Shown: positions 28,804 through 33,023 of the stretch, piece by piece
Numbering within the stretch: position 1 is the stretch's first letter
Layout: each line of letters opens with the position of its first letter
Source: Bacilli bacterium
GTDB taxonomy: Bacteria > Bacillota_I > Bacilli_A > RFN20 > CAG-288
Assembly: GCA_022652945.1 (NCBI GenBank)
Contig: JALCRV010000001.1
Location: forward strand, 1-64,000
Reading direction: 5' to 3'
DNA length: 64,000 bases
Position numbers and translations under genes: made by a program
Notes under the pieces: generated by a model
What the model saw: the letters and a program-made list of their open reading frames with translations, nothing else
Database searches by the model: none
Told to the model about the DNA's origin: nothing

Positions 28804-30537
28804 TTACTTAGTGCAATCTTCAACCCAGGAGATGAAATTAGAAGTGGAATTCCCGCTTCTTTCCGCTTCGGTATGAGCCTTGCCCCAGACCGTAGCGAAA
28901 TCGACGGAGGAGACAGAAGCGTTATTCTTCAAGGCTAAGGAAAGATTAGCTTCCGTCGTTAAAGCCGTATCGGTCTGATTAATACCAGTTCTGATACGCC
29001 AGAACGAAGCGACCTTTGAAGTGTTATAGCCCTGATAGTAATCATCAAGATAGTACATAGGATTGTACATCTCACTGCGGTAAGTAACATCCTTCCCAAC
29101 CGAATCGGTCGCCTGGAAGTCAGCGGTGAAAGCGGAAGTATAATCCGTATATCCGCTTAAAGAGGCATACTTAGTCTTATTATCTTCTAAGAGTTTCTTT
29201 TCTACCGCATCGAAATGGCCAGCTGCGGAAGTGGCTTCCGTTGAACGGAAGACGGTATTCTCTGTCGCATTCCCGCTCGGGCTATCAAAGGCCCCGACGG
29301 ACTTAGAAGCTTGTTTATCGGCTTTGATAAACCCGCTTAAATCGGTGATCGAAGCGGTATTAGAAGCCGAATCAAAGCTAGCCCAGCTCCCTAAAGAAGA
29401 GACGTAGCTGGCTTTAGAAGAAGTATCCGTCCCGTAAGTATCGCTCAGGTAGTTATTTAAAGACTCACTGACTACCGAGACGATGTAATCGTAATAAGTG
29501 CCGGAAAGATAGAACCCGGAAGAGCTTTGAGTTAAAGACAAAGTCTCACCGTTATTCTTTAAGCCGATACCGTTGATAAAGTCGGCATAAGCGGAAGCCA
29601 TATCGTCGCTTAAGGCCTTAGTAAAAGTCCCGTTGGTTCTGCTTGAAGAAGTGAAGAACTGACCCATATTCCATTCGTAGGCTTCGTCCCCTTCATCCAA
29701 GGAAGTAATCGGGCACCAGCACATCGAGCCGGCCACCGCATCGGAAAGATCATTTCCGTTCTGATCCTTTAAAGGAGCTCCGATCGCTTCAAGGTAAGGA
29801 GTATATAAAGGAGAATCACCGCTAGCCCCCATCAAAGAAGACTGCGCTCCGCCACCCGACATCCCGAAAGTAAAGATCTTCGAGGTGGAGCCAGGTAACT
29901 TGCTAGCGTTATATCGATAGTCTCTGACCGCGGCTTTTAAGTCTGTTACGCCCCAGGGGGCTTGACCGGAAGTGACGTTTTTCCCTCTCATCCCGGCTTG
30001 GACATAAATAAATCCAGCCGCCAGATAGGAACTGATGCTGCTATAAGAATAAGAAGAAGGTTCTGCTTGCGAGGCGTAGCCCGGAGTATTGACCGGGAAA
30101 ACAATCGGAGCGGAGGAAGCCGTATAAGAGGCGACGCTTCCCTGGGCATTTACTTGGCAGGTATAAGTCCCATCGCTATTTTTCGTTCCGGTAAAATAAG
30201 CGCCCGGGACAAAAATTCCCATGGTTTCTAAAGAAGAATCAACCGGAGCGGAGCAGTAGCTGAGCCCGATCTGGTAATAAACGTTATTGGTGGCATCGTA
30301 GGACCATTTTGCTTCATTTATGTCAATTGAGCCAGAGGCGACAATGGAGGCGGCGCTTCCACCCATTCCTCCTCCTCTGCCCCCGCCTCCGCTATTAGTC
30401 GTCGCGCCCGTCGAGGTCAGTTCAGAGGTGGTCGAAGCACTGCTGGTACTGGTTAAAGAAGCCGTAGTTTGGCCACAGGAAACTAAAGATAAAGGAAGAG
30501 TCAGACATAAGCATATAAAGAGCATTCTTTTTTTCAT
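28804..30537 (-). CDS. Tannase-like (subtype B) alpha/beta-hydrolase lipoprotein
   Basis: The 577-residue protein has a signal peptide with lipobox LVSC (Cys21), a Ser/Thr linker and a Gly-rich stretch (49-60). The hydrolase nucleophile elbow is FTFGMSGGGAQSSLMG (Ser227). A further conserved block is FWRIRTGINQTDTALTTEANLSLAL, and the C-terminus has WGKAHTEAERSGNS with a probable catalytic His555. These blocks match subtype-B tannases of lactobacilli, which hydrolyse gallate esters of plant polyphenols; a related ester substrate is possible. Tethered outside the cell, it would act on dietary or plant material. It lies 46 nt after a tiny lipoprotein gene, in the same direction. Confidence 0.8.
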   Translation of the reverse strand: MKKRMLFICLCLTLPLSLVSCGQTTASLTSTSSASTTSELTSTGATTNSGGGGRGGGMGGSAASIVASGSIDINEAKWSYDATNNVYYQIGLSYCSAPVDSSLETMGIFVPGAYFTGTKNSDGTYTCQVNAQGSVASYTASSAPIVFPVNTPGYASQAEPSSYSYSSISSYLAAGFIYVQAGMRGKNVTSGQAPWGVTDLKAAVRDYRYNASKLPGSTSKIFTFGMSGGGAQSSLMGASGDSPLYTPYLEAIGAPLKDQNGNDLSDAVAGSMCWCPITSLDEGDEAYEWNMGQFFTSSSRTNGTFTKALSDDMASAYADFINGIGLKNNGETLSLTQSSSGFYLSGTYYDYIVSVVSESLNNYLSDTYGTDTSSKASYVSSLGSWASFDSASNTASITDLSGFIKADKQASKSVGAFDSPSGNATENTVFRSTEATSAAGHFDAVEKKLLEDNKTKYASLSGYTDYTSAFTADFQATDSVGKDVTYRSEMYNPMYYLDDYYQGYNTSKVASFWRIRTGINQTDTALTTEANLSLALKNNASVSSVDFATVWGKAHTEAERSGNSTSNFISWVEDCTK

Positions 30538-30811: not shown

Positions 30812-30978
30812 AAAGATTATCCTCCAAGAAGTATCTTCGTGTAATATACATTTAACTAGTAAAGATTATTGGCAAGCAATTCATTTTTTCTTTAAGAAAT
30901 GACTAAAGCGGAATAAATTTTCACTTCTTTTATAGAAAAACGTTCGACTTAATTGTCTTAATTATTGCAGGAGGAAAA

Positions 30979-31485
30979 ATGCTTGTTTCCAAGAAAACTG
31001 CTCAGCTCTTCATCTCCGGAGATGAAAAAGCTATCCAAGAGGTTTATCTCTCCTACCGAAAACTCTTATTCTTTATTCTCGGCTCGATCCTCGGCTCTAA
31101 AGATGAAGCGGAGGATCTTTTCCAAGAGACTTTCTATCAGGTCTTAAAGAATAAAGATAAGATAGCTGATCCTCAAGGCCTTCATTACTACCTCTTACAG
31201 ACCGCGAGGAATCTCGCTTTGAATTACGTTAAGAAAAGAGAGAGAACCGTCTATTTTGAAGATATGTTTTCTTATGAATCCCAGGATAAGAAAGAAAATG
31301 CCTTCTTACAGGATCTTCTTCCTTACCTTACCGATCAGGAAGCCTTCATCGTGACTTCCCGCCTAGTCTACGGCTTTACTTTAAAAGAGATCAGTCAGTT
31401 TATTTCTCTGCCCTTATCGTCCACGGAGGCGATATATAAGAAAGCCTTAAAGAAAATCAAATCTAAGTATTTAAAAGGAGAATGA
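30979..31485 (+). CDS. RNA polymerase sigma factor, ECF-like
   Basis: The 168-residue protein has region 2 (VYLSYRKLLFFILGSILGSKDEAEDLFQETFYQVL; the DEAEDLFQETF core is diagnostic) and region 4 (LPYLTDQEAFIVTSRLVYGFTLKEISQFISLP, then an HTH recognition helix). Region 3 is absent, as in ECF sigma factors. The RBS AGGAGG is 5-6 nt before the ATG. The membrane-anchored serpin-like gene begins 4 nt after the stop, so the two are translationally coupled like a sigma/anti-sigma pair. The lipoprotein/tannase operon is divergent, 167 nt away, and is a likely target. Confidence 0.92.
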   Translation: MLVSKKTAQLFISGDEKAIQEVYLSYRKLLFFILGSILGSKDEAEDLFQETFYQVLKNKDKIADPQGLHYYLLQTARNLALNYVKKRERTVYFEDMFSYESQDKKENAFLQDLLPYLTDQEAFIVTSRLVYGFTLKEISQFISLPLSSTEAIYKKALKKIKSKYLKGE

Positions 31486-31489
31486 TTCT

Positions 31490-32974
31490 ATGAATTACAA
31501 AAAAAGATTCGCCGCTGATGTTGAAAAGAAATTGGATGCTCAAGCTCCTCACCTTGATGAATTCGAGAAGAAAGAAGAAACAGAAACAGAAAAGCCCAGC
31601 CATAAAAAGCTGTTCTGGTCTTTAACCGGCTCTTTAGTCGGAGCGGCCTTGGTCTTAGGTACCTTATTAGGTATCTTCCAACCGTGGAATAAAAAGACCG
31701 GCGAGAATTTAGGAAATCTTTTGACATCCCCTTCAGAAAGAGATATCCAGAAACTGAGTTACTCCGACGATATCAACGTCGTCTCCTTGAAGACGATAAA
31801 TATCTATAAGTCTTTTGTTTCCTCTTTCGGCCCAGAGGTCTTTCAGGAAGAGGATACTAGTTCTAAGAGCTTCTCCGTCTTGGATGCCTTTGTCAATGTA
31901 TGTATGTTGGCTTATACATCTTCTGCGGAAATCAGAGACGTTATTCTTTCCTGGCTTGGCAATCCTTCGATTGAAGAAGTGAATACGGCGGTTAAAGAAC
32001 TGATCAATGCCTTAGGGACTCCTTATCTTCCCTCTAACGAAATCCTCACCGCTCCGGAAGGAGGTTTCTCTTTAAATTCTATCTGGTTAGATGAACAGTT
32101 AAATCTTAAGGAGAACAGCAAGGAATACTTAACTGTCTTGGAGGACTATTATTATGCGGCGGTTTATCATTCTAAGCCTTCAGCGGAAAAGTTAAACCAA
32201 TGGATGAAAGATCACGTGCCTTCTTCCTATCCTAAAATTCCGCAGATTGTATTCCCCGATAAGGCCAAAGCGGATATCAACGCTTCTGTCCTTTCGTCAT
32301 ATTTCTTCTTCCGTTCCTTTGAAAAAGCCACGGCTGATATTTATTTAAGCGAGTATCAAAGCGGTAATCATTATCTGGATTATTCTTTAGCGGATGGCCA
32401 AATCAAAAAAGCTGATTATACCCTTCAACACCTAAAAGGAACCCGAAAGAAAATCATCGGCTCAGCTTTTGAAGGAGTAAAAGCTGAAATGGGAATGGCT
32501 TACTTCCTTCCGAAGGAAGGCAAGTTGCCTAACCAAATCATGGCTGACGTAATAAATGAAAACTACTCCTTCAGTTCTGAAGAATATACTGCCAGCCTTA
32601 CCGCCCCTTACTTCTTAATCGATAACAAATTGGATTTAACCCCCGTCTTAAGAAAGAAAGGCTTGACGATGGAAGATGGCTTTTTAGCTAACTTAGTCGG
32701 CTTCGGGGAGCAACTGGCGGAAATGAAGCAATTCTCCTTGCTCCAATATGATTACTCAGGTCTTTATTCCGCCTCCATCACCATAGCTAATGAGGAGACA
32801 ACTTCAGTTCCGCAAAATGAAAAGTACGATTTGGTCCTTAACCGTCCTTATGCCCTTTCTGTTTCGCTTAATGTCAAAACTGAAGAGAAGGTCGGAAACG
32901 TCCATAAGAATGTTTCCCTTCCGGTCATCTTCGGAGAAGTCTTCGATCCGGGATACGAGATATATAAAGGATAA
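31490..32974 (+). CDS. Membrane-anchored serpin-like protein, probable anti-sigma factor
   Basis: Residues 1-40 are charged and cytoplasmic, 41-65 form one membrane helix, and about 90-494 are extracytoplasmic and serpin-like. Serpin blocks seen: KSFSVLDAFVNVCMLAYTSS (helix B start; SPxSI in serpins), NSIWLDEQL, LNQWMKDH (iNxWv), MAYFLPKEG, ASLTAPYFLIDNKLDLTPVL (strands of sheet B) and LNRPYALSV with LPVIFGEVFDP at the C-terminus. Length fits TM plus a serpin of about 400. The hinge before the reactive loop (around SASITIA) lacks the usual Glu-Gly-Thr-Glu run, so inhibitory activity is uncertain. It directly follows a sigma-factor gene (4 nt). By the sigma/anti-sigma rule, the short cytoplasmic tail would hold the sigma factor while the serpin senses an external protease. 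Confidence 0.75.
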   Translation: MNYKKRFAADVEKKLDAQAPHLDEFEKKEETETEKPSHKKLFWSLTGSLVGAALVLGTLLGIFQPWNKKTGENLGNLLTSPSERDIQKLSYSDDINVVSLKTINIYKSFVSSFGPEVFQEEDTSSKSFSVLDAFVNVCMLAYTSSAEIRDVILSWLGNPSIEEVNTAVKELINALGTPYLPSNEILTAPEGGFSLNSIWLDEQLNLKENSKEYLTVLEDYYYAAVYHSKPSAEKLNQWMKDHVPSSYPKIPQIVFPDKAKADINASVLSSYFFFRSFEKATADIYLSEYQSGNHYLDYSLADGQIKKADYTLQHLKGTRKKIIGSAFEGVKAEMGMAYFLPKEGKLPNQIMADVINENYSFSSEEYTASLTAPYFLIDNKLDLTPVLRKKGLTMEDGFLANLVGFGEQLAEMKQFSLLQYDYSGLYSASITIANEETTSVPQNEKYDLVLNRPYALSVSLNVKTEEKVGNVHKNVSLPVIFGEVFDPGYEIYKG

Positions 32975-32984
32975 ATATGAAAAG

Positions 32985-33023
32985 AAAAAAGTCTTCCAAG
33001 GTCCAAGCCAAGGAAGACTTTTT
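32985..33023 (+). terminator. Terminator of the sigma/serpin operon
   Basis: AAAGTCTTCC (32988-32997) pairs with GGAAGACTTT (33012-33021), followed by Ts. A-rich sequence in front makes it plausible for the converging araC-type gene as well. Confidence 0.85.

Follow-up and report, generated by a model that had tools for sequence, protein, structure and literature searches.

A recurrent sigma factor gene/serpin gene pairing in Bacilli predicts anti-sigma factors with a serpin as extracellular sensor

INTRODUCTION

What could a bacterium sense with a serpin tethered above a sigma factor? Sigma/anti-sigma pairs are one of the chief means by which bacteria sense their environment, and the question is raised by a two-gene locus of a Bacilli bacterium (GTDB lineage RFN20; CAG-288), found in a 64,000-nucleotide (nt) stretch, hereafter the window (assembly GCA_022652945.1, contig JALCRV010000001.1, positions 1 to 64,000 of the forward strand). 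There, an extracytoplasmic function (ECF) sigma factor gene is followed by a gene that a sequence-only reading had taken to encode a membrane-anchored anti-sigma factor with a serpin-like external domain. We regard it as very probable that the second protein is indeed a serpin-ectodomain anti-sigma factor. The evidence is set out below, followed by the ways in which such a protein might signal.

RESULTS

The sigma gene and the serpin gene. The two genes and the parts of the second protein are located as follows.

30979..31485, + strand: ECF sigma factor with regions 2 and 4, 168 amino acids (aa); Pfam and NCBIfam
31490..32974, + strand: predicted membrane-anchored serpin-ectodomain anti-sigma factor, 494 aa
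31490..31609, + strand: cytoplasmic tail, residues 1 to 40, predicted anti-sigma domain, common to 91/91 sigma-linked proteins
31610..31678, + strand: transmembrane helix, residues 41 to 63, from hydropathy (model helix 50 to 62, low confidence)
31679..31771, + strand: juxtamembrane segment, residues 64 to 94, with conserved L78 and P81
31772..32956, + strand: serpin domain, residues 95 to 489, from profile search and structural alignment
32759..32782, + strand: reactive-loop hinge P15 to P8 (GLYSASIT), modeled as strand s4A with the loop inserted

The first open reading frame (ORF) matched Sigma70_r2 (3.5e-12) and Sigma70_r4 (1.3e-5) in Pfam and exceeded the cut-off of the NCBIfam family TIGR02937, sigma70-ECF (4.5e-17). 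The protein consists of regions 2 and 4 with little besides, which identifies it as an ECF factor. The second ORF starts at 31490, 4 nt after the end of the first, and the two genes form one unit. The layout given in the sequence-only reading proved exact, both in its coordinates and in its order of a 40-residue tail, which is charged, one hydrophobic segment (residues 41 to 63), and an external domain.

Identifying the serpin from sequence was not trivial because Pfam and NCBIfam scans gave no domain match for the protein by itself. A phmmer search of PDB sequences ranked alpha-1-antitrypsin first, weakly (E 0.0027). Of the relatives from the same order, 21 to 31% identical in alignment, two exceeded the PF00079 cut-off (4e-7 for P0003 and 2e-8 for P0005). 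A profile built from 15 sequences, with the window protein at the head, was run against 177,635 distinct PDB sequences, with listing to E 10; two matches were returned and both were serpins, the better one at E 1.2e-7 and colinear across the whole domain. The AlphaFold2 models, one of the full-length protein (predicted local distance difference test [pLDDT] 67.5) and one of the domain only (pLDDT 75.1; predicted template modeling score 0.82), aligned to serpins with Z scores of 32.5 and 33.1 over 337 to 338 residues at 2.7 Å, and the alignment spans residues ~95 to 489. Profile, relatives, phmmer, and models thus agree that the second protein is a serpin, and the structure prediction that the sequence-only reading had put forward as a check came out in its favor. 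A nonserpin fold was rejected: all structural matches listed are serpin structures, save one entry titled only as virus capsid.

Recurrence of the pairing. The family profile found a relative in 90 of the 279 genomes of the window's order, and a PF00079 match above cut-off was present in 116. About 150 such loci were retrieved and the gene upstream was inspected; they are a sample picked by serpin similarity rather than a census. Among the distinct serpins of the order, 87 lie directly after a sigma gene versus 62 that do not, so that the search for further serpin-ectodomain pairs, also suggested earlier, had a positive outcome. The sigma/serpin junction in these relatives is often a 4-nt overlap. 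The sigma/serpin arrangement is seen also in one family (L156 to L159) of a second order within the class. Chance neighbors were rejected as an explanation, since the same gene order recurs in 87 distinct proteins. A scan of genome contigs with the window protein as a single query found no relatives; the alignment-based contig scan gave 14 named loci, mostly from gut Bacilli or Erysipelotrichaceae metagenome-assembled genomes. The named relatives are labeled Bacilli, Bacillales, or Erysipelotrichaceae, with a ruminant gut source for many.

On a serpin tree (FastTree, rough), the sigma linkage label switches 14 times, compared to 56 in shuffles, and at least 10 of the switches are forced by strongly supported branches. 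Because of these repeated switches, the pairing probably had several origins, with gains and losses indistinguishable on this tree. Separately, two or three lipoprotein serpins stand in tandem arrays at four loci (L122, L083, L085, and L097).

The tail as an anti-sigma module. In the wider set of sigma-linked proteins, all 91 carry 18 or more tail residues ahead of a membrane helix. Nearly all serpins with no sigma link are lipoproteins. L025, which seems to be an exception, begins 202 nt from a contig edge, and its upstream gene is therefore cut off. Two tailed proteins with no sigma gene (L169 and L171) belong to a separate family. That family, f17, is found in five genomes of the same class (L167 to L171) and comprises membrane-anchored serpins of 524 to 580 aa with a mid-domain insertion, charged cytoplasmic tails, and no sigma gene upstream; it is perhaps another type of serpin sensor or anchor. 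In the sigma-linked clade E2, three serpins with no sigma neighbor (L081, L106, and L127) have a short or missing tail, and L081 resembles a lipoprotein.

A good example of how the tail behaves comes from the genus g48, where paralogous sigma genes are followed by a protein that shares this tail (KKxxKR...NPY...) and carries another, nonserpin ectodomain. Since these paralogs keep the tail and change the ectodomain, tail and helix would constitute the module and the ectodomain the exchangeable part. Five g48 proteins (L190, L193, L196, L202, and L215) have this combination of serpin-type tail module and other ectodomain, and two of these pairs, when scanned, gave no Pfam match. In the window genome, four other ECF genes each precede a similarly laid-out membrane protein whose ectodomain is not a serpin. 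Sigma distances correlate with tail distances at r 0.85, versus 0.73 with serpin distances, and shared ancestry contributes to both values. Of the earlier claim that the protein is the anti-sigma partner, the topology is supported, as is a recurrent, co-inherited pairing; the role of the tail is supported by inference, from its presence in 91/91 linked proteins, its absence from almost every unlinked serpin, and the g48 paralogs.

The reactive loop and its hinge. Residue names, including those of the shutter, were carried over from standard serpin numbering by alignment. Some features are common to all clades. Nearly every sequence has Gly at P15, and almost all have small residues at P12, P10, and P8, three positions expected to face inward once the loop enters sheet A. 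A full-length reactive loop is also retained across all clades. Other features distinguish them. The sigma-linked clades C, D, and E1 have an inhibitory-type hinge (GIEGGA, GIEAAA, and GFEAAA), clade A, to which the window protein belongs, has G[FL]YS[CA]S[VI]T, and clades B and E2 have other versions of hinge and shutter, each conserved.

In the domain model, s5A (residues 413 to 421) is followed by a tight turn and a strand at 424 to 432 (P15 to P7), which is the loop-inserted arrangement, and most of the best structural matches are serpins in the cleaved or latent state. The modeled loop is thus compatible with insertion, the state preferred by AlphaFold being weak evidence, and its cleavage or insertion is a plausible signal. 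Residues 73 to 94 of the model were aligned by tengpin entries only, among the matches listed. This juxtamembrane segment, modeled with low confidence, may be an attractive candidate link between the state of the serpin and the membrane.

Promoter, terminator, and candidate regulon. The unit is flanked by the following elements.

30933..30941, + strand: candidate ECF -35 element TAGAAAAAC, from aligned 41-mers of sigma-gene upstream regions; weak match here
30953..30961, + strand: candidate ECF -10 element TTGTCTTAA of the two-block ECF promoter family; clear in the window copy
30969..30974, + strand: ribosome-binding site AGGAGG, 5' of the sigma gene, read from sequence
32988..33021, + strand: inverted repeat AAAGTCTTCC...GGAAGACTTT with a 14-nt loop, then a T-run, read from sequence; likely a terminator closing the two-gene unit

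The family promoter has a -35 block (for example, CGACAAAA, GAACGTTTT, or GAGCGTTTT) at a set spacing from the -10 block NGTCTTA, and the candidate -35 element of the window was placed at this fixed offset from its -10 element. The two-block promoter was found in 38 of 65 nonredundant sigma upstream regions versus 2.8 expected, a figure that is a guide and not a strict test because the -35 alternatives were taken from the same sequences. This ECF-type promoter before the sigma genes points to autoregulation at the level of the family. Lipoprotein serpins are generally at chance (3/74 versus 2.6 expected), and among them the promoter is present only in g48. There, 45 exact matches to the motif version ARCRNNTTTN13GTCTTA lie in 14 genomes, compared to 4 for the reversed control (sums from the table of counts), and the adjacent downstream genes include sigma genes, lipoprotein serpins, and further lipoproteins. 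Within this genus (L189 to L218), the motif precedes a few lipoprotein genes, including serpins and lipoproteins of 190 to 500 aa with no assigned family. These genes are a candidate surface regulon, whose reader would be either the serpin-linked sigma factor or its nonserpin paralog. Divergent from the window's sigma gene, at a distance of ~440 nt, lies a gene for a lipoprotein with an alpha/beta-hydrolase (BD-FAE-like) domain (28804 to 30537, - strand).

DISCUSSION

How might such a pair work? We propose an autoregulated ECF sigma factor that is kept inactive by a single-pass anti-sigma factor with an extracellular serpin sensor. The N-terminal ~40 residues would bind the sigma factor, and the serpin would be displayed outside the cell in a metastable state. 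Cleavage of the reactive loop by an extracellular protease, or its destabilization by some ligand, would let the hinge insert into beta-sheet A, and this switch from the stressed to the relaxed form would be the trigger. The short juxtamembrane segment would pass the change on and expose the protein to regulated intramembrane proteolysis, first by a site-1 protease and then by the M50 protease of the genome. The freed sigma factor would then transcribe its own operon and its target genes. The window genome does have an M50 site-2 protease candidate, which is permissive evidence only because all 14 of 14 control genomes have one too. The most likely mechanism, to which we give about an even chance, is that extracellular proteolysis is sensed through the reactive loop and that the sigma factor is released by regulated intramembrane proteolysis. 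The broader proposal is more tentative and, in our estimate, falls somewhat short of even: a new class of transmembrane protease sensors in which cleavage of a tethered serpin releases an ECF factor, with several origins in gut Bacilli and, in some lineages, feedback through lipoprotein serpins.

Several observations weigh against this mechanism. Clade A deviates from the inhibitory hinge consensus at P14 (Leu or Phe) and P13 (Tyr), and its shutter is altered in every sequence, the second Ser being replaced by Asp (21/21) and the s5A His by Gln (21/21). The window hinge, SGLYSASIT, accordingly fails the inhibitory motif ExGTEAAAA defined for P17 to P9 (PMC8233489); P15 Gly and the small P12, P10, and P8 are kept, and P14 and P13 differ. 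Protease trapping may therefore have been lost in clade A, where it is less certain than in the sister clades C, D, and E1, and the window protein may sense without inhibiting because both its hinge and its shutter are noncanonical. Of the sequence-only proposal that the serpin traps proteases, the fold stands, and the P14/P13 and shutter residues make the trapping less certain. AlphaFold may also be biased toward inserted loops, many solved serpins being cleaved or latent. No known anti-sigma domain was detected in the tails. The class I anti-sigma domain is an N-terminal four-helix sigma-binding domain (PMC7406223); the 40-residue window tail has one predicted helix, at low confidence, and no Pfam or NCBIfam match to class I. 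Finally, a promoter pattern search of the window's own genome gave the known site and two others, neither of which has a same-strand ORF close downstream, and thus no further regulon members were found there.

The clade A residues would be explained if the ectodomain were a ligand or conformational sensor, in which a small molecule, glycan, or protein shifts the balance between inserted and expelled loop and cleavage plays no role. Hormone-binding serpins show such a ligand-linked shift. The top structural match was corticosteroid-binding globulin, although it is tied with the rows near it in Z and is no evidence for a ligand. We consider this explanation unlikely, though the strongest of the rivals, as the full-length loop with its small inward residues is retained in all clades and sister sigma-linked clades keep the inhibitory-type hinge. 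Those same hinges of clades C, D, and E1 would suit a tethered serpin that inhibits the site-1 protease and shields the anti-sigma factor until excess protease depletes the serpin and the sigma factor is freed; protease load would then be sensed by titration, with no part for movement of the serpin itself. That the g48 lipoprotein serpins share the promoter type fits such a circuit, in which inhibitor would be replenished. This explanation appears less probable still; the hinge of the window's clade is noncanonical, and a titration model overlaps with loop-cleavage sensing, the covalent serpin-protease complex being irreversible. It is also conceivable that the serpin plays a passive or housekeeping role as a surface domain carried on an anti-sigma factor, or that it is a surface serpin with no tie to the sigma gene beyond cotranscription. 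We find this improbable, given that the association is repeated on the tree, that tail and helix are perfectly linked to the sigma gene, and that hinge positions are conserved within clades.

Among known systems, the closest logic, by analogy, is that of SigV/RsiV of Bacillus subtilis, where the anti-sigma factor RsiV is a lysozyme receptor (PMC4183432, PMC5014341). As in the proposed serpin pair, an ECF factor is held by a single-pass anti-sigma factor, the RsiV ectodomain itself senses an extracellular protein, and the output is regulated intramembrane proteolysis, which is also proposed here. RsiV differs from the window protein, whose ectodomain is a serpin, in the type of its ectodomain, in its binding of lysozyme, and in its cleavage by signal peptidase; a Pfam scan matched no RsiV-type ectodomain in the window protein. 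The RsgI proteins of Clostridium thermocellum likewise have a short N-terminal sigma-binding domain, one transmembrane helix, and exchangeable ectodomains, and RsgI9 has a C-terminal protease-like domain (PMC12203970). They differ in that they are paired with SigI, that signaling begins at an autocleaving domain, and that the ectodomains bind polysaccharides and include no serpin. The bacterial inhibitory serpins tengpin, miropin, and siropins (PMC5127057, PMC8233489) share the serpin fold; these are stand-alone inhibitors with no reported sigma partner and with the canonical hinge that the window protein lacks.

The novelty is a new sensor fold within a known signaling logic. No paper joining serpins with anti-sigma or ECF factors was found in the open-access literature, subscription literature and ECF-classification supplements lying outside the scope of the search, and a brief mention may exist in these. 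Membrane-anchored serpins of prokaryotes are noted in a wide-ranging phylogenetic study of serpins, which makes no mention of sigma factors.

Of the proteins that work by a large and irreversible change in conformation, serpins are the best known. If the proposal is true, the serpin sensor would be the first bacterial signaling system known to us that is built on that change, and it would offer a simple genetic readout of it. It would also explain many unexplained serpins of gut bacteria. In lineages that also control secreted lipoprotein serpins, the pair would form a feedback circuit that both measures and counters extracellular proteolysis.
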